Source: a virus. Taken from it: a stretch of DNA of 33,674 nucleotides. This document shows, piece after piece, positions 5,260 to 30,111 of this stretch (the stretch's first letter is position 1; every line of letters begins with the position of its first letter). The notes beneath the pieces were generated by a model. It ran no database searches. It was not told where the DNA came from and saw only the letters and a list, made by a program, of their open reading frames with translations. The stretch covers positions 1-33,674 of the IMG/VR virus record IMGVR_UViG_3300006802_000283. One strand, written 5' to 3'. Made by a program: the position numbers and the translations under genes.

Positions 5260-6252
5260 CTATTCACCTTGGTTGTAGTACTGTTCAGCATATTGATCTA
5301 AAGTGTATTCAACACCGGGGAATTCATCCTCCATGTTGGCCTTAATCACTTTATATGCCTGCATTGCTTCAGGTGGTAGAGAAGCTGTTTTTGGTTTACT
5401 GTTATCGTCCGACGCGCTAGCAGCACGTTTCGAACGGCTAATGTTCCGGGCTTTCTCTTTACGAGGATTCCGTTTTACCGGCTGATCATCTTCCATCTGA
5501 TCATCTCCTTCGTCAGAGTCGTCCCGCTGATCATCAAATAAATCCGGGCGAGATACGCGCATCTGCCGGTCTAGTTCCGCAAGTAGCTCCGGGGAGTCCG
5601 GTTGATACTTACTTGGGTTTGATTTCATAAGCTTCTCAGCTTTAAATACCGCGACGGCTGTGGCTTCTTCATCCTGATCAAACCACGGGTTTTCTTCTAA
5701 CCACGCATCAGTATTTGGTGTGTCTGAAGTGGGGAGGTCTTCGATCTGTTCCGGCTCAGGAGCATTTTCTCGCAACGCTTTTTGCTGCTTCTCAATGTCC
5801 AAAACGACCTGAATCTCGCCTTCTTCCATAGCTTCTAGCCGCTGTCGCTCTAATGCTTCAATGCGGCTTTCGATATCCGCCTTCGAAGTCTTTTGTTGGT
5901 TCTCTAGAGTTTTCTGTAACGCTTTATGGATCGCCCGGTTTTCTTTGGTGATCGCATCAAGCTTCTTCTCTAAAGTAGTATTCTTTTCCTTAAGTTCACG
6001 ATCAATACGCTTACCACGAGCAACAAAATGCTCTGCGCTTACCCACCGTTTCGGATCACCTTTCCATTCTTCTTTAGGACGCCAGCCAGCTTCTCGGGCT
6101 TCCAGCTCCACAGAGTCAATGTCATCCGCATCCTCCGTTTGTTCTCCAGGATCGTTATCCTCTACGTCCTCAGTTTCCTCTTCTTCAGAAACCTCATCGG
6201 GTAAATCTGCCAGCGCATCGGCCAACACTTGTTTCTCTAAATCTTCATGCAT
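5260..6252 (-). CDS. capsid scaffolding protein
   Basis: The product is about 330 residues from the ATG at 6252, chosen because GGAGAG lies just upstream and the start overlaps the co-chaperonin gene by 8 bp; a longer in-frame start at 6285 lacks this. The N-terminus is very acidic (runs of E and D to residue 45), followed by GWRPKEEWKGDPKRWVSAEHFV, then a coiled coil of about 90 residues (roughly 70-160) rich in K, E and L, a second acidic region and a basic patch (NPRKEKARNISRSKRA) before the C-terminus. This is the usual make-up of phage scaffolds, which nucleate the shell and then leave it. Confidence 0.85.
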   Translation of the reverse strand: MHEDLEKQVLADALADLPDEVSEEEETEDVEDNDPGEQTEDADDIDSVELEAREAGWRPKEEWKGDPKRWVSAEHFVARGKRIDRELKEKNTTLEKKLDAITKENRAIHKALQKTLENQQKTSKADIESRIEALERQRLEAMEEGEIQVVLDIEKQQKALRENAPEPEQIEDLPTSDTPNTDAWLEENPWFDQDEEATAVAVFKAEKLMKSNPSKYQPDSPELLAELDRQMRVSRPDLFDDQRDDSDEGDDQMEDDQPVKRNPRKEKARNISRSKRAASASDDNSKPKTASLPPEAMQAYKVIKANMEDEFPGVEYTLDQYAEQYYNQGE

Positions 6253-6625
6253 GTCTGCTCTCCACAATACCGACGATCTGATCATCGTTCATCATCCGGT
6301 ATAATTCGCCATTCGTTTTGAAGTGAAACCCGACGTACTTATCAATTAAGACAGTGTCGCCGATCTTTGGTTTTAGACCTTTCCAGTCTGCAAAACTGTC
6401 ATCATCAACAGCAACTAAAATAGCGTGCTGCTGTGCGCGTTGATGAGTCTCTTTGACTGTTTCAGGAATCGCAATCATCGACCCCTTAAATTGGTCATCC
6501 GTATCTTCAATGCTTAATGGCCGGACCGCTACGCGGCCCCAGACAGGTCGGATACCACATTTGTCTATCCACTCCTGTATCTCATCTAACGGTGCAATGT
6601 CCACCGACTTAGCTGCTTCACTCAT
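6245..6625 (-). CDS. GroES-like (Cpn10) co-chaperonin
   Basis: The 126-residue protein has the Cpn10 framework: IRPVWGRVAVRPL (25-37) corresponds to the first strand of GroES, MIAIPETVKETHQRAQQHAILVAV covers the mobile-loop region, and PKIGDTVLIDKYVGFHF plus 'GELYRMMNDDQIVGIVE' match the conserved end. An N-terminal extension of about 24 residues precedes it. Like T4 gp31, such proteins adapt host GroEL for folding the phage capsid protein; the gene sits directly upstream of the scaffold and three genes from the capsid gene, which supports that job. It overlaps its neighbours (TAATG upstream, 8 bp downstream). Confidence 0.85.
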   Translation of the reverse strand: MSEAAKSVDIAPLDEIQEWIDKCGIRPVWGRVAVRPLSIEDTDDQFKGSMIAIPETVKETHQRAQQHAILVAVDDDSFADWKGLKPKIGDTVLIDKYVGFHFKTNGELYRMMNDDQIVGIVESRHA

Positions 6626-6864
6626 TATTCGTCCTCATAAAGATCGCTATACTCTAAAGTTAACAAGTCGTCTATCACTTCGAACACTTTGATATTCAAC
6701 TGTTGCTCTTCCTCAGATACAACCGCTCCGCTCATCATCGCTTCGACATATTGCTGTTGAATATCTTCACGACGTTCACGTAGATAGTTGTGTAGGAACT
6801 CTTCTGTGGGCAGACTCTCCTTCCATTGAAGGAACTCCGCCTTGCTCAGTTTGATCTTGGGCAT
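6625..6864 (-). CDS. small acidic protein, unknown function
   Basis: This 79-residue, mostly helical and acidic protein (LSKAEFLQWKESLPTEEFLHNYL at the N-terminus) is coded in another frame across the last 89 bp of the portal gene and continues to the GroES-like gene, with which it shares TAATG. No family is recognised. The position between portal and co-chaperonin and the tight coupling argue that it is real. Confidence 0.6.
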   Translation of the reverse strand: MPKIKLSKAEFLQWKESLPTEEFLHNYLRERREDIQQQYVEAMMSGAVVSEEEQQLNIKVFEVIDDLLTLEYSDLYEDE

Positions 6865-19661: not shown

Positions 19662-19814
19662 ATGCATGATCCAAAACTAGCGAATTTTACGAACACCGAG
19701 CTTGTATCGTATATCCTCGGAAGCGACATACTAAGCGGTGATGACCTTAAAACCTACATCATTGCGCTACTGGTATCGCGACTTGAGACAGCCATTGGCT
19801 CTGGGGACGAGTAG
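19662..19814 (+). CDS. 50-residue hypothetical protein
   Basis: ATG at 19662 starts four bases after the previous stop. The product (MHDPKLANFTNTELVSYILG...) is acidic and helical. Its stop shares TAGTG with the first glycine-repeat gene, placing it in the same coupled series. Confidence 0.5.
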   Translation: MHDPKLANFTNTELVSYILGSDILSGDDLKTYIIALLVSRLETAIGSGDE

Positions 19815-20014
19815 TGCGGGTATTGAAAAACGCTCGCTCGGCATCCTCAATTGACTCGAGTTACGGTCGGGGCGAGGGCTGGGGCCGGGGTAGCGGCGCT
19901 GGCAATGCCCGGGGTAAGGGCTGGGGCGAGGGCTGGGGTAGTGGTCGCGGCAAGAGTGCTGGATGGGGCTGGGGGGACGGTTGGGGATATGGATCTCGCT
20001 GGAGTGGCGAATGA
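19814..20014 (+). CDS. glycine-repeat microprotein 1
   Basis: A GTG start at 19814 shares TAGTG with the upstream gene and gives a 66-residue protein with leader MRVLKNAR, akin to the MKILKHKY leader of the next members. From residue 17 on, Gly is at nearly every second position (GRGEGWGRGSGAGNARGKG...), with Trp, Arg, Ser and Asp between. The stop overlaps the next start (ATGA). Function unknown. Confidence 0.7.
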   Translation: MRVLKNARSASSIDSSYGRGEGWGRGSGAGNARGKGWGEGWGSGRGKSAGWGWGDGWGYGSRWSGE

Positions 20015-20151
20015 AGATTTTGAAACATAAATATTTTTATATTTACCCCAGCTCTGGCGATGGCTGGGGTAATGGCAGTGGCGCGGGTAGGGGAGTTTCT
20101 GGCGGCAATGGCATGGGTTGGGGATACGGATATGGCAAGGGCGGCGGATGA
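20011..20151 (+). CDS. glycine-repeat microprotein 2
   Basis: The 46-residue product starts MKILKHKYFYIYPSSGDGWG and continues with X-Gly dipeptides to the end. The first 24 bases of the gene are identical to those of microproteins 3 and 5. The start and stop both lie in ATGA overlaps with neighbours. There is no separate ribosome binding site, so reinitiation after the upstream stop is likely. Confidence 0.75.
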   Translation: MKILKHKYFYIYPSSGDGWGNGSGAGRGVSGGNGMGWGYGYGKGGG

Positions 20152-20399
20152 AGATTTTGAAACATAAATATCCCTATCCCGGATCGGGCGATGGCAGAGG
20201 TAACGGCAGGGGCAACGGCAGGGGTAATGGCTGTGGCTGGAGCAATGGCAGTGGCGCGGGTAGGGGAGTTTCTGGCGGCGATGGCAGGGGTTGGATCGAT
20301 GGCAAGGGCTATGGCCTGTATGGGGGTGGCGGTAGCGACCAGGGGCATGGTAGCAGCAGCATCAGTAGCGGAGTAGCGCTACTGAGGATGGAACCATGA
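20148..20399 (+). CDS. glycine-repeat microprotein 3
   Basis: The longest member, 83 residues, starts MKILKHKYPYPGSGDGRGNG. A stretch of about 45 bases in its middle is almost identical to microprotein 2, showing duplication. The C-terminus loses the repeat (SSISSGVALLRMEP), as if a frameshift or new sequence had been added. Coupled by ATGA on both sides. Confidence 0.75.
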   Translation: MKILKHKYPYPGSGDGRGNGRGNGRGNGCGWSNGSGAGRGVSGGDGRGWIDGKGYGLYGGGGSDQGHGSSSISSGVALLRMEP

Positions 20400-20509
20400 A
20401 AATTTTGAAACCTAAAAATCGTTATGACCTGAGCGTTGGCTATGGCAGGGGCTATGGCTGGGGCATTGGCACTGGCAGGGGCGCGGGGTACGAGTGGGGC
20501 AGCGGATGA
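20396..20509 (+). CDS. glycine-repeat microprotein 4
   Basis: The 37-residue product starts MKILKPKNRYDLSVGYGRGYG and ends YEWGSG. It has the same leader with two changes and the same ATGA coupling. Confidence 0.75.
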   Translation: MKILKPKNRYDLSVGYGRGYGWGIGTGRGAGYEWGSG

Positions 20510-20628
20510 AGATTTTGAAACATAAATATGCTCTCTCCTCCTGGAGAAATGGCGGCGGGAATATTTGGGGAGAGGGCAGAGGCGGGGGCGCGCACTTCTG
20601 TGGCTCTGGGCAAGGGCAATGGTACTAG
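20506..20628 (+). CDS. glycine-repeat microprotein 5
   Basis: The 40-residue product starts MKILKHKYALSSWRNGGGN, with G-rich, less regular repeats, one Cys and the end GQGQWY. It is the last of the first cluster; a gap of about 70 bases and a normal ribosome binding site (TGAGGT) precede the next gene. Confidence 0.7.
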   Translation: MKILKHKYALSSWRNGGGNIWGEGRGGGAHFCGSGQGQWY

Positions 20629-20701: not shown

Positions 20702-21082
20702 ATGAAGAAGACAATTATTGGTAATCAGACTGATCAACAAGTAATTGATGTTGACAACTGGGGTGAGCAAGGCGACTTACGTATCGTTCGCTGTAAGCGA
20801 ATCCCAGATAAGTTTCAAACGCAAACCGACGATGTGATTGTCGCTCATTCTGAAACCGGGCATCACCACGTCGTTGATCTAAACGAAGTGGATGTGTTTC
20901 ATCACCCGGAAAATGAGCGTAAAAAATACATTCGTTTGAAAGGAGAATCAGCTAACGTGATTCACATGCGAGATCATCGAACGCACAAAACACAACGTGT
21001 TGTGGGGAAACCTGGCGATGTCTTTAAGTTGATTCGCCAAGTTGATTTTTGGAAAGAACAACAGCGTATCCGGGCCGACTAA
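20702..21082 (+). CDS. conserved phage protein with HSETGHHHVV motif
   Basis: The 126-residue protein has a central AHSETGHHHVVDLNEVDVFHHP (about 48-69) and flanking strand-rich segments, perhaps a small barrel. I recall similar His-triad segments upstream of DUF6745-type genes, but function is unknown. Metal binding by the His cluster is possible. The stop shares TAATG with the next start. Confidence 0.7.
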   Translation: MKKTIIGNQTDQQVIDVDNWGEQGDLRIVRCKRIPDKFQTQTDDVIVAHSETGHHHVVDLNEVDVFHHPENERKKYIRLKGESANVIHMRDHRTHKTQRVVGKPGDVFKLIRQVDFWKEQQRIRAD

Positions 21083-21819
21083 TGGGATTGGCTTATCACA
21101 TCTTGGGATCGCTAAGAATGCGGCAAGACGACGATACAGCATTTGTGATGCGGGAAGTTAATCGTCTTGCCGATGAGTTTGGACTACGGGCTATCATCTG
21201 TGACGGCCCTACGGAGGTAATCGAGAAAACGGGATTAGCTGTACAAGCGTATGACTATGCTGCTGAATGCTTAGAGTGTTTGCAATCTTTGAGACAGCAT
21301 TGTCACCGGATATTTATCTATGATGATGTGATTCTCGTGCAGATGCTCCCCACAAGGGTACTAGTTGCACAGGGGGTAGGCTTGCACTCAACAAGCGAAC
21401 CTGCGCTTGAGTATGCAGATGGCACTAAAGAATATTATGTGCGGGGGGAACAGGCACCCGCAGAGTTCTATGTGCCGGGGTACTTGAATGCCGAAATGAT
21501 TCTCGAACATATGCGCGACAACATCGATACGCAATCGATCGCGATCGAGATCTACGGCTGGCCCAACATACTTTCAGAGTTAGAAGCAGAAGTGATCGAT
21601 GAAGACGAACCGCACATCGGTACTTTGTACGAAGCATCGTTGGGCGATGAACCTTTTCGACTTTTGAAATGCGTATGCGGTACGGGCGCGGAAGTAGTAC
21701 TACCCGTGCTTATGTCACACACCACGGCCTTGGAAGCAAACAGAGCCACGTTTGCGGATGAAGATGATGAGGCTGATGGCAGCATTGAATTTTTAACACA
21801 TTTGGAGGCAAGAACATGA
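21082..21819 (+). CDS. DUF6745-like protein
   Basis: The product is about 245 residues from the ATG at 21082 (TAATG coupling). The part from about residue 100 on (GVGLHSTSEPALEYADGTKEYYVRGEQAPAEF ... AEMILEHMRDNIDTQSIAIEIYGWP ... GTLYEASLGDEPFRLLKCV) follows the DUF6745 pattern. No catalytic function is established for the family. The stop overlaps the DUF6948-like gene by 4 bp. Confidence 0.65.
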   Translation: MGLAYHILGSLRMRQDDDTAFVMREVNRLADEFGLRAIICDGPTEVIEKTGLAVQAYDYAAECLECLQSLRQHCHRIFIYDDVILVQMLPTRVLVAQGVGLHSTSEPALEYADGTKEYYVRGEQAPAEFYVPGYLNAEMILEHMRDNIDTQSIAIEIYGWPNILSELEAEVIDEDEPHIGTLYEASLGDEPFRLLKCVCGTGAEVVLPVLMSHTTALEANRATFADEDDEADGSIEFLTHLEART

Positions 21820-22193
21820 ATAACCTAATCAATTTGATCAATGAAACTTTTATCGGTAAACGAGTAGTCATCCGGTCCAACTCCGCAGGAGTGTTCGTAG
21901 GCACGTTAGTAGCTAGAGACGGGCAGACAGTACTCTTAAAAAACTCTCGACGCATTTGGGGTTGGGAAGGGGCGGCATCGCTCTCGGAGCTAAGTCAACT
22001 CGGCGTTAAAGCGGATCGGAAATCGGCTTGTAAATTTCCAATCCCGATGGCCGAGCAGGTGGTTGAAGAAGTAATCGAGATTATTCCGGCAACTAAGGAA
22101 GCGCTGAATAGCCTCGACTCTACACCGATTTGGGGATTCGTAAACACCGATTACACGATCACTGAAGATGGTACTGCGGTTGCTAATAGTTAA
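21816..22193 (+). CDS. DUF6948-like protein
   Basis: The 125-residue protein begins with IGKRVVIRSNSAGVFVGTLVARDGQTVLLKNSRRIWGWEGAASLSELSQLGV, the characteristic DUF6948 pattern, then a helical C-terminal part with EVIEIIPATKEALNSL. It looks like a small beta-barrel. It is coupled by ATGA to the DUF6745-like gene. Function unknown. Confidence 0.75.
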   Translation: MNNLINLINETFIGKRVVIRSNSAGVFVGTLVARDGQTVLLKNSRRIWGWEGAASLSELSQLGVKADRKSACKFPIPMAEQVVEEVIEIIPATKEALNSLDSTPIWGFVNTDYTITEDGTAVANS

Positions 22194-22317
22194 GGCCAAA
22201 TACCCTCGGGGGGATCTCCCCCCGAGAGCAGACGGTGAAAGGCGTGTGTGGACAAGCCATATCGTTCGCCGGGGCAACGGCTGGGGCGGAATAGTATCAA
22301 CGGAGATTGACTTATGA
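22168..22317 (+). CDS. degenerate glycine-repeat microgene
   Basis: ATG at 22168 (or TTG at 22180) opens a 49-residue frame overlapping the end of the DUF6948-like gene. It contains VKAKYPRGD, close to the LKHKYPYPGSGD start of microprotein 3, and a short RRGNGWGG remnant. Its stop overlaps the next start in ATGA, exactly as in the intact clusters. A GC-rich hairpin (22205-22226) lies within it. Coding status is uncertain. Confidence 0.4.
   Translation: MVLRLLIVKAKYPRGDLPPRADGERRVWTSHIVRRGNGWGGIVSTEIDL
22205..22226 (+). promoter_or_regulatory. GC-rich hairpin CTCGGGGGG-N4-CCCCCCGAG
   Basis: A perfect 9-base stem with a 4-base loop, just after the DUF6948-like stop codon. No T-run follows, so it is not an ordinary terminator; it may limit reinitiation or protect the message. 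Confidence 0.6.
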
Positions 22318-27120: not shown

Positions 27121-27558
27121 ATGATGACGAAAGCGCTTGATAAACAAGTTGGTGGTAAGCATTATCAGAAGTTTGCGATCCAACCTTTAGAGTTCATTTC
27201 CAAAAACGATCTGTCGTTCTCGGTGGGAAACGTTGTGAAGTACGTTTGCCGACATAAGTTTAAAAACGGAGCGGAAGACATCCAAAAAGCAATTCATTAC
27301 TGCTTGGTGATCCTTGAATTTGAGTACGGTATTGTGCAAGAAGGCGAGAACCCTGATTTGATTGCAGAGAAAGAGGCATCCGCCGCCCTTCGCGTATCGC
27401 TACGTGATGCCCACGACAAGCTGGCTACGCTGCAACAGGAGTATGAGACAGCACAGCATAACATTAATCAGTTGTTGCTCGAGAACGCACAGTTACTAGA
27501 TGAGCAGCCGGTAGACTACCCGCCCATTGGGACTTCAAATGAAGATTATAAAAGCTAA
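27121..27558 (+). CDS. DUF3310 protein with C-terminal coiled coil
   Basis: The first 75 residues (KQVGGKHYQKFAIQPLEFI ... LSFSVGNVVKYVCRHKFKNGAEDIQKAIHYCLVIL) match DUF3310, a small phage domain often called nucleotide-kinase-like but of unproven activity. Residues 80-130 form a coiled coil (LRDAHDKLATLQQEYETAQHN). AAGGAG lies upstream. The last 20 bases overlap the first gene of the second glycine-repeat cluster. Confidence 0.85.
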   Translation: MMTKALDKQVGGKHYQKFAIQPLEFISKNDLSFSVGNVVKYVCRHKFKNGAEDIQKAIHYCLVILEFEYGIVQEGENPDLIAEKEASAALRVSLRDAHDKLATLQQEYETAQHNINQLLLENAQLLDEQPVDYPPIGTSNEDYKS

Positions 27559-27706
27559 CTGGGTAGCGGCCCGTGGATATGGCTGGGGCCGTGGCTATGG
27601 CTATGGCTGGGGCCATGGCAATGGCAAGGGCTATGGCGATGGTTGGGGGTATGGCTATGGCAGCGGCACGGGCAGTGGCTGGTGGAGCTGGAGGAACTTT
27701 GAATGA
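27539..27706 (+). CDS. glycine-repeat microprotein 6
   Basis: The 55-residue product starts MKIIKANWVAARGYGWGRG and then has 18 consecutive X-Gly dipeptides (X = R, Y, W, H, N, K, D, S, T), ending with WWSWRNFE. It starts inside the DUF3310 gene in another frame, and the stop overlaps the next start (ATGA). Confidence 0.75.
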   Translation: MKIIKANWVAARGYGWGRGYGYGWGHGNGKGYGDGWGYGYGSGTGSGWWSWRNFE

Positions 27707-27819
27707 AGATTATATACTTTAAGTATCCAATATCGCAGAGAAGCGAGACGCATATGGGCGCAGGTACAGGTAGTGGCTGGGCAGGGGCTGGGGGGATGAT
27801 GACATATGAAGATTATTAA
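27703..27819 (+). CDS. glycine-repeat microprotein 7, reduced
   Basis: The 38-residue product starts MKIIYFKYPISQRSETHMGA, has a short GTGSGWAGAGG part and ends MMTYEDY. It has the leader but few repeats. Overlaps of 4 and 14 bp with neighbours. Confidence 0.65.
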   Translation: MKIIYFKYPISQRSETHMGAGTGSGWAGAGGMMTYEDY

Positions 27820-27913
27820 AGCTAACTGGGTATGGGGCGACGGCAATGGCTATGGCCGGGGCACCAATAGAGGAGACGGGTATGTGGGTATCCTCTGGGA
27901 GGTAAGGCAATGA
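27806..27913 (+). CDS. glycine-repeat microprotein 8
   Basis: The 35-residue product starts MKIIKANWVWGDGNGYGRG and ends ILWEVRQ. Its first 27 bases differ at one position from microprotein 6. The stop overlaps the exonuclease start (ATGA); GGGAGGT in its last codons serves as the ribosome binding site for that gene. Confidence 0.7.
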   Translation: MKIIKANWVWGDGNGYGRGTNRGDGYVGILWEVRQ

Positions 27914-28497
27914 TTATCTGGATTGACACTGAAACGTTTAATACCCGTGAAAACGACATAAAGGCGGTGGGCACAGTTAAATACGCTCAGACATGCGAAC
28001 TGTTATTGGTGACATTAGCCGTCGATCACGACAAGCCCATCGTAGTTGATTACACATCGGGGGAAACGCTTCAAATAGACCAACATGGCATGAGAGTAAA
28101 CACTCAGAAGTCCATGTTCTGGGAGTTGAGCGACGTTTCGTTTATGTGTGTCGCGCAAAACGCTATGTTTGATCGACACGTGCTGGGGGCAAAGGGCATC
28201 GTACCCCACGATGTGGTGTGGCAAGACAACATGGCGCGATGTTTAACCATGGGCCTTCCGGCTAGCCTTGCGGGGCAATGTGAAGCACTGGGCATCGCAG
28301 AAGATCAAGCGAAGCTGTCTGAAGGTAAGAAATTGATTAACCGATTTTGTAAGCCTGCCCCGGATAATCATAAGGCGGAGCGCTACACGAAAGAGACACA
28401 CCCCGATGAGTGGGCTAGATTTATTGAGTACGCAAAGCAGGATATTGTTGCTATGCGTGAGGTTTGGAAAAAAACACCAGGGTGGAATTACCGATGA
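27910..28497 (+). CDS. 3'-5' exonuclease (DnaQ/PolA proofreading domain)
   Basis: The 195-residue protein is a DEDDy-type exonuclease: IDTET (5-9), AQNAMFD (82-88, N84 and D88) and EYAKQDIVAM (Y174, D178). It corresponds to the proofreading domain of family A DNA polymerases, here separate from the polymerase part, which is encoded two genes on. It probably acts with it at the fork. Confidence 0.9.
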   Translation: MIIWIDTETFNTRENDIKAVGTVKYAQTCELLLVTLAVDHDKPIVVDYTSGETLQIDQHGMRVNTQKSMFWELSDVSFMCVAQNAMFDRHVLGAKGIVPHDVVWQDNMARCLTMGLPASLAGQCEALGIAEDQAKLSEGKKLINRFCKPAPDNHKAERYTKETHPDEWARFIEYAKQDIVAMREVWKKTPGWNYR

Positions 28498-28682
28498 AAG
28501 ACATAACGAGTTTAGAAGAGCTGTTTGAGAGTTTGGAAGACATTAACTACGCAAGTAAGATAGCTGACGTGGCTAAATCTCTTGATGATGAATTAGCGGC
28601 TAGAGACATACGAGATCCCTTAAAGCACGACATTGTGGTTGCCGTGACCAGCGGATTTAAAGTCAGCTATACAATGCGCTAA
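28494..28682 (+). CDS. small helical protein between exonuclease and polymerase
   Basis: The 62-residue product from ATG 28494 (ATGA overlap) is acidic and helical (ITSLEELFESLEDINYASKIADVAKSLDDEL). It might act as a linker or adaptor between the two polymerase pieces, or be an unrelated insertion. No family is recognised. Confidence 0.6.
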   Translation: MKDITSLEELFESLEDINYASKIADVAKSLDDELAARDIRDPLKHDIVVAVTSGFKVSYTMR

Positions 28683-28686
28683 TACG

Positions 28687-30111
28687 ATGGCGCATAGTGA
28701 ACTAGACATATGGCATCTCGATCAAACGATCAACGATCGAGGTTTCCCTGTTGATGTCCCGTTGGCCGAGGCGATTGAACGAGAAGCCCAACGCACGTCC
28801 AAGCGATTAAAGCAGAAGATGTTTGACCTCACCGATGGTGAGGTGACATCAGGTAGACAGGTAGCAAAGTTGCAGAAGATATTGCAGGACAAGCATGGCT
28901 ATCGAATAAAGAATCTGCAAAAAGCGACTGTCGAATCGGCATTAGCAGACGAGAGAACACCGCCTGTTGTGCGTGAGATTCTTCTAACAAGACAATCACT
29001 GTCTCTCTCATCGGTTGATAAAGTCAGGGCACTTCTTAATTCGCAGATGAACGGTCGGGTATATGGCGGGATGTTTTACTATGGAGCGCATACAGGCCGT
29101 TGGACCGCGAGGTTGTTCCAAACGCAGAATCTAAAGCGACCGCCAAGCGATTTCAAAGGTGACGCTATCGATCAGGCAGTTGATGCATTCATGACAGATA
29201 GCGCAGACCTTTTCTATGATGATCCGCTCACGGTGGCCAGTTGGTTAATTAGGTCATTAATTAAATGCGAATCACCTAATCATTTACTTATGTGTGATTA
29301 CGCAAACATCGAAGGACGTGCATTAGCGTGGTTGGCCGGTGAGGATTGGGTAGTCACAGCGTTTCGTGAATACGACGAAGGTAAAGGGGATGATCTTTAC
29401 AAACTAACATACGCACGTGCTTTCGGTATCCCAGTCGCACACGTAACAGATGATCAACGTCAAATTGGAAAGGTTATGACGCTGGCCCTTGGGTACAATG
29501 GGGGCGCAGGAGCCTTTCAACGTATGGCTGTTAATTTCGGTATCGACATTGACGATGATCTAGCAAAACGACTTGTTAAGAGTTGGCGCGAGAGTAACCC
29601 CAAGATTAAAGCACTGTGGAAAACCGTAGAGAAAGCATGTATATCGGCTGTTAAGAACAAACGTACCCAGATTATCTGTGATGGCAAGTTGACAATTGGC
29701 TATAAAAACAACTATTTACTAATACGGTTGCCCTCTGGTCGTCTTTTAAGCTACGCTAATCCAGAGGTCTACCCAACTGTTTTCGAATGGAACGGTGATC
29801 TTATCAATACCGAGGCTTTGCGTTATCAAGGTGTCGCAGGTCCAGCACGGCAGTGGTTGTGGGTAGATACGTACGGCGGGTCGCTAGTTGAAAACATTGT
29901 GCAAGCGCTCTGCCGTGATTTATTAGCGTATGCGTTGTTGGCCTGCGAACGAGATAATTTAAATCCGGTGTTCCATGTGCATGATGAAATTGTATGTGAA
30001 ACGACAAGGCATTTAGAGGAACTAGAGGCGTGTATGCTGGCGAAGCCTGGGTGGGCAGACGAACTACCTATAGCAGTAGAAGGCAGCACAGGTATACGGT
30101 TTAAAAAATAA
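28687..30111 (+). CDS. DNA polymerase I family polymerase domain
   Basis: The 474-residue protein has the family A polymerase motifs: YYGAHTGRWTARLFQTQNL (131-149), motif A MCDYANIEGRALAWLAG (202-218, D204), motif B DQRQIGKVMTLALGYNGG (256-273; R258, K262, Y270) and motif C HVHDEI (430-435). At the '762' position, eight residues after the motif B Arg, there is Leu (L266) rather than Phe or Tyr. There is no exonuclease domain in this polypeptide. It replicates the phage genome with the separate exonuclease and primase-helicase. Confidence 0.95.
   Translation: MAHSELDIWHLDQTINDRGFPVDVPLAEAIEREAQRTSKRLKQKMFDLTDGEVTSGRQVAKLQKILQDKHGYRIKNLQKATVESALADERTPPVVREILLTRQSLSLSSVDKVRALLNSQMNGRVYGGMFYYGAHTGRWTARLFQTQNLKRPPSDFKGDAIDQAVDAFMTDSADLFYDDPLTVASWLIRSLIKCESPNHLLMCDYANIEGRALAWLAGEDWVVTAFREYDEGKGDDLYKLTYARAFGIPVAHVTDDQRQIGKVMTLALGYNGGAGAFQRMAVNFGIDIDDDLAKRLVKSWRESNPKIKALWKTVEKACISAVKNKRTQIICDGKLTIGYKNNYLLIRLPSGRLLSYANPEVYPTVFEWNGDLINTEALRYQGVAGPARQWLWVDTYGGSLVENIVQALCRDLLAYALLACERDNLNPVFHVHDEIVCETTRHLEELEACMLAKPGWADELPIAVEGSTGIRFKK

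Follow-up and report, generated by a model that had tools for sequence, protein, structure and literature searches.

X-Gly microgenes in the window

The window, which is the whole 33,674 nt stretch of viral DNA that we analysed, includes two clusters of short open reading frames (ORFs) characterised by glycine alternating with another residue (X-Gly). Cluster 2 consists of three such microgenes between a DUF3310 gene and the gene for a proofreading exonuclease, and cluster 1 consists of five. The window also encodes a DUF6948 protein (Table 1). A DUF6745 gene (21049–21819) is directly upstream of the DUF6948 gene and overlaps it.

Table 1. Coordinates of the features described in the text
Feature	Position	Strand	Remarks
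Cluster 1 copy 1	19814–20014	+	66 aa; GTG start; diverged leader VRVLKNAR
Cluster 1 copy 2	20011–20151	+	46 aa; leader MKILKHKY
Cluster 1 copy 3	20148–20399	+	83 aa; leader MKILKHKY; duplicated stretch in common with copy 2
Cluster 1 copy 4	20396–20509	+	37 aa; leader MKILKPKN
Cluster 1 copy 5	20506–20628	+	40 aa; leader MKILKHKY
DUF6948 gene (PF22253)	21816–22193	+	Between both clusters; E 4e-24, 84.9 bits (cut-off 27)
Possible decayed X-Gly microgene	22168–22317	+	49 aa; KAKYPRG and RGNGWGG; weak
DUF3310 gene (PF11753)	27121–27558	+	Stop inside ORF1 leader
X-Gly microgene ORF1	27539–27706	+	55 aa; leader MKIIKANW; 18 X-Gly units
X-Gly microgene ORF2	27703–27819	+	38 aa; leader MKIIYFKY; ATGA overlap with ORF1; GGAGG before ATG
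X-Gly microgene ORF3	27806–27913	+	35 aa; leader MKIIKANW; 5 X-Gly units; ATGA overlap with exonuclease gene
GGAGGT Shine-Dalgarno site	27898–27903	+	6 nt before exonuclease ATG; read from sequence
Proofreading exonuclease gene	27910–28497	+	Separate gene here; fused to polymerase in relatives L003–L005

The X-Gly run of ORF1 (27572–27679) comprises exactly 18 units. In 500 dinucleotide shuffles of the region the longest run was at most 6 units, and in 20 shuffles of the whole window it was 3–4. We assigned to the class those ORFs made up mainly of alternating X-Gly. This describes ORF1 (18 units) and ORF3 (5 units), and ORF2, with only a short Gly-rich stretch, is marginal. ORF1 and ORF3 have MKIIKANW leaders that are identical at all but 1 of 24 bases; as a control, the leader pattern was reversed, and it then had no matches. 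A preliminary description of this DNA had reported three frames of 55, 38 and 35 residues with MKI leaders, 18 consecutive X-Gly dipeptides in one of them, and a leader subtype distinct from that of cluster 1; our analysis confirms the coordinates and the exact count, which exceeds that in all shuffles, and supports the separate subtype. The ATGA linkage described for the cluster is present at two of the four joints, ORF1/ORF2 and ORF3/exonuclease (27910), but the other two are longer overlaps: 20 nt between DUF3310 and ORF1, with the DUF3310 stop codon (27556–27558) in the ORF1 leader, and 14 nt between ORF2 and ORF3, with the ORF2 stop codon (TAA) in the ORF3 leader. Searches of the microgenes against Pfam, PHROG and NCBIfam yielded composition matches only, or none, and a scan of the collection for an MKI leader followed by X-Gly yielded only false positives. 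As far as the collection shows, the MKI leader appears to be peculiar to this phage.

It had also been proposed that the microgenes control expression of the exonuclease through translation. Consistent with such a relay, ATGA is found at half of the junctions, and an unbroken chain of overlapping ORFs runs from DUF3310 to the exonuclease. However, the relay is not needed for the exonuclease, because this gene has a strong Shine-Dalgarno site of its own and the RNA around its start is no more structured than shuffled sequence (z +1.1). Strong independent initiation is what the preliminary description had itself set against coupling. Furthermore, the genes that follow X-Gly arrays vary between phages, and related replication loci lack arrays. 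In ~80 related phage loci, found via the exonuclease, polymerase or DUF2800 genes and mostly 28–42% identical, we detected no comparable X-Gly microgenes near those genes; hence, cluster 2 is accessory to the replication genes. The same three genes were used to seek a close relative of this phage; the best identity was 42%, and none was identified. We consider translational control of the exonuclease by the microgenes to be improbable, and the claimed link is not supported. In three relatives of the exonuclease (L003–L005), exonuclease and polymerase form one gene, with an SSB-like gene slightly upstream. In the window (27910–30111) the two are split, and a 72-aa ORF without a family match (28464–28682) lies between them.

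In cluster 1, a stretch near 20066–20105 is repeated near 20240–20280, a sign of recent tandem duplication within the cluster. The ORF at 22168–22317 overlaps the end of the DUF6948 gene, just after which microgenes are usually found, and it is joined to the next gene by ATGA. With five copies in cluster 1, three in cluster 2 and this possible remnant, the earlier count of eight copies plus a remnant is a fair one.

Pairing of X-Gly microgenes with DUF6948

An initial scan of viral sequences for ATGAA followed by GG with a period of 6 identified >120 viral stretches. Many of these are simple repeats, and dozens encode (X-Gly)n, with tandem arrays of X-Gly genes that have their own leaders in six records (L014, L015, L034, L076, L096 and L121). 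In two of these, L034 and L096, the tandem genes have a common leader, MKYPKG, and a common tail, AYPY..VTR, and a similar 351-aa gene adjoins both. One small protein recurs among the neighbours of (X-Gly)n genes: the Pfam family DUF6948. The preliminary description had overlooked this, the main association of the microgenes.

The pairing was counted using a degenerate DNA motif for DUF6948 that has no X-Gly gene content, in viral contigs and in bacterial and archaeal genomes. Because the motif demands a His, and an Arg with a CGN codon, the matches represent one part of the family; the contigs scanned are fragments. Each distinct DUF6948 gene followed by 150 nt or more of sequence was considered, and X-Gly runs of at least 5 units within 400 nt downstream on the same strand were scored. 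Among the matches listed, such a run is found downstream of DUF6948 in 93% of the distinct viral loci (78 of 84) and in 17 of 18 loci from bacterial genomes; it is also present in all six phage records found by protein search. The background is 0.3–1%: X-Gly follows 8 of 2572 ORF ends in control loci and 16 of 1629 other ORF ends in the same loci. The 86 control loci examined for DUF6948 itself (1.37 Mb) do not contain it. For the six viral misses among the matches listed, the array is upstream in three and at +553 in one. In 94 of 124 loci among the matches listed, the stop codon of DUF6948 is overlapped by a candidate start codon (ATG, GTG or TTG), and the X-Gly start is usually within the last 1–17 nt of DUF6948. 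Some phage records with X-Gly genes, which may be incomplete, have no DUF6948 match (e.g. L014, L034, L096 and L107). We regard it as near certain that DUF6948 and the X-Gly microgene form a real module. Against this background the copy number in the window is unusual, because two or more separate X-Gly ORFs downstream of DUF6948 are rare (5 of 103 loci among the matches listed).

Genes near the DUF6948/X-Gly pair encode exonuclease VIII/RecE, Erf, RecT, SSB, helicases and YqaJ nucleases. In Pectobacterium phage Ymer, for example, the X-Gly gene is overlapped by DUF6948, with exonuclease VIII, Erf and SSB genes upstream. It is easy to overlook the pairing, because the repeat gene is unannotated, as in Iodobacter phage PhiPLPE, or the annotation is given to another frame of the repeat, as in Chlorobiaceae phage CV-1-33. 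In the literature searched, mostly outside subscription papers, neither DUF6948 nor phage microgenes of the X-Gly type are described. None of the libraries searched includes the X-Gly family or mentions the pairing; the fold of the partner is already known.

Several loci have unusual arrangements. On the minus strand of L049, in the ORF at 6104–6721 of that strand, DUF6948 extends, without a change of frame, into a tail rich in Gly and Asp, which hints at a natural fusion of both partners. PHROG 18306 may be another X-Gly/DUF6948 fusion (matches at 57–111 and 154–233, the first of which is non-significant). In L329 (4303–4821), L075 (4542–5168, minus strand) and L098 (3278–4066, minus strand), an X-Gly stretch is fused to a common C-terminal globular domain with the pattern VY.ID......A.G.IL..DLT.....FAHG.TL and no Pfam match. 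Finally, DUF6948 and an X-Gly array occur together on a contig assigned by binning to a Thermoplasmata archaeon (L332), for which a binning error or an archaeal virus is possible.

Predicted fold of DUF6948 and composition of the X-Gly peptides

A monomer model of DUF6948 (AF2, alignment of 87 sequences) has a pLDDT of 92 and a pTM of 0.80, as compared with a pLDDT of 53 for a single-sequence model. The model has an N-terminal helix and a small bent beta barrel, as in the Sm/LSm fold. Indeed, almost all of the PDB matches listed by Foldseek and VIA-align are Sm/LSm proteins, the best among those listed being Archaeoglobus Sm1 (1i4k; Z 9.2, 2.0 Å over 70 residues); the structure of Archaeoglobus Sm1 with poly-U (1i5l) has a Z of 9.0. 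The best viral fold matches are three viral entries named DUF6948. Seven residues are invariant in the DUF6948 alignment (R20, G25, V26, G29, R46, G63 and E88). Weak sequence hints, to LSM14 (sub-threshold in Pfam) and PHF1, are to the same small-barrel type, and a Pfam scan returned only DUF6948 and the sub-threshold LSM14 match, with no Hfq profile match. It is likely that DUF6948 has an Sm/LSm fold. A common fold is no proof of a common function. Pfam PF22253 is a name without a function, to which we add the Sm-fold match and the X-Gly partner.

Repeat tails are known for other proteins with this fold. The eukaryotic proteins SmD1 and SmD3 have C-terminal Gly-Arg dipeptide repeats. These resemble the phage module in combining an Sm fold with a dipeptide repeat that has Gly at every second position, but they are in cis and Arg-rich, whereas the phage repeat is in trans and mostly Ser/Tyr/Asp, and there is no sign of common descent of the repeats. 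In Acinetobacter Hfq, Gly-rich repeats (GGFGGQ) and an acidic tip affect RNA binding and autoregulation (PMC11617691), and in E. coli Hfq the acidic tail acts as a nucleic-acid mimic (PMC5606850). The likeness to Hfq lies in an Sm fold, predicted for DUF6948, together with a Gly-rich repeat and/or an acidic disordered segment. In contrast to Hfq, the phage repeat is almost always a separate overlapping gene with a period of 2 residues, and DUF6948 has no Hfq sequence match.

In 123 linked arrays (3304 units, those within one array not being independent), X is Ser in ~34%, Tyr in ~29%, Asp in ~24.5% and Asn in 4% of units. The proportions are the same for arrays with GGC, GGG or GGT glycine codons and for X codons ending in C or T, GGA arrays being too few to judge, and Ala is avoided at X in each main codon regime. 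Because X composition agrees across codon regimes, selection acts on the peptide; the argument rests on this agreement and not on p-values, which the dependence between units makes unreliable. Avoidance of the restriction palindrome GGCGCC was rejected as an explanation for the lack of Ala, since the same avoidance is seen for codons that give GGCGCT. Of the linked arrays, 93% have a net negative charge (median −6). Array length can differ where the DUF6948 domain DNA is identical (50 units in L261 and 33 in L296), for which an error in repeat assembly is possible.

The microgenes of the window lack several of these typical traits: they do not start at the DUF6948 stop codon, X is not mainly Ser/Tyr/Asp, and they are not net acidic. 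The clusters are 1.2 kb upstream and 5.3 kb downstream of DUF6948, X is mainly W, Y, R, N, D, S and K, and seven of the eight microgenes are basic (+2 to +5), the other having a net charge of 0. What places them in the class is the X-Gly pattern, together with a DUF6948 gene elsewhere in their genome. Since they are not adjacent to DUF6948 and are basic, unlike the acidic canonical microgenes, they could form a branch with a different function, or be low-complexity genes that arose by convergence.

Possible functions of the X-Gly peptides

What is the function of a dipeptide-repeat peptide that is encoded next to an Sm-like protein? The best explanation of the data as a whole, to which we give an even chance of being correct, is that the X-Gly product would be a disordered, low-complexity partner of Sm-like DUF6948, separately encoded and translationally coupled to it. 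We propose that the peptide may tune or condense nucleic-acid binding by DUF6948, in the way that the cis-encoded Gly-rich and acidic tails of Hfq do, and that it would act in early replication and recombination operons. By analogy with those tails, a tail mechanism in trans is the best of several readings, and its chance of being correct is close to even, if anything slightly lower. The three cluster 2 ORFs would then be translated members of a phage class of (X-Gly)n microgenes. In this phage, amplification would have produced eight copies of the microgene, which would have moved into two clusters, one on either side of DUF6948, and the position of cluster 2 between DUF3310 and the exonuclease would be a neutral or co-regulated location and not a translational switch.

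Alternatively, X-Gly peptides could be independent effectors that clog proteases, bind host proteins or pair with DUF6948 in the manner of a toxin and its antitoxin. The restricted S/Y/D/G composition, the difference in array length at identical DUF6948 domain DNA, the arrays without a DUF6948 match and the fusions of X-Gly to another globular domain are all consistent with this. However, the almost invariable pairing with a single Sm-fold family, and the overlap of stop and start codons, argue for a common complex or common regulation, and there is no toxin- or protease-specific feature among our data. Hence, we consider independent effectors to be rather unlikely, while giving them an appreciable chance.

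A second alternative is that the function resides in the nucleic acid: the period-6 G-rich DNA or RNA could be an element for recombination, packaging, pausing or termination, with the frames as by-products. The repeats are indeed strikingly uniform in their period of 6, the median array using a single Gly codon and a single third base at X, and stops interrupt the other two sense frames in few arrays only. Nonetheless, the S/Y/D composition and the avoidance of Ala persist under different synonymous codons, including the non-palindromic GGC-GCT; most arrays encode Ser as TCN, some as AGY; and the start codons overlap the DUF6948 stop. Furthermore, ~25 stops would be expected at X from base composition, which is a weak test since the arrays were pre-selected as open. 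We regard a nucleic-acid function as quite improbable. Neutral expansion of a repeat at a permissive site, with the frame kept only against polarity, would fit the tandem duplication within cluster 1, the low complexity and the differences in length between near-identical loci, but the fixed site beside DUF6948 in very diverse phages and the restricted X residues make it very unlikely.

The scan that identified (X-Gly)n genes also revealed a second dipeptide-repeat module, (X-Ser)n microgenes, many of which have the leader MNxAxxxAG[FYW]. A common family of ~110 aa (alignment A4), which has no Pfam match, precedes (X-Ser)n in 11 of 18 loci (L044, L045, L060, L062, L077, L078, L086, L089, L090, L106 and L128), and a further five records hold it (L019, L105, L108, L116 and L126), giving 16 of 18. 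DUF6948 was not found in 15 (X-Ser)n records, in a search that had no positive control of its own and whose query matched six records elsewhere. Compared with the DUF6948 profile, the A4 family has a weak match (probability 18%, E 0.0013) over the first barrel strands. Each kind of dipeptide-repeat microgene follows a recurrent family, which is a different one in each case.

We tentatively suggest, with somewhat less than even confidence, that these modules represent a general phage system of two genes, one for a small Sm-like protein and the other, translationally coupled to it, for a pure dipeptide-repeat peptide: (S/Y/D)-Gly with DUF6948, and (W/R/G)-Ser with the second small family. Such a system would be a prokaryotic in-trans counterpart of the repeat tails of Sm proteins, and would have escaped annotation because gene callers leave out the repeat gene or put it in the wrong frame. 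With our analysis, the glycine-repeat microgenes, until now a curiosity, become part of a testable partnership at ~100 loci from diverse phages and prophages. DUF6948 acquires a predicted fold and a partner, and a class of phage genes overlooked by annotation comes to light. If DUF6948 binds RNA or single-stranded DNA, the pair may represent a minimal system of an Sm protein and a disordered partner, in which core and tail can vary independently.
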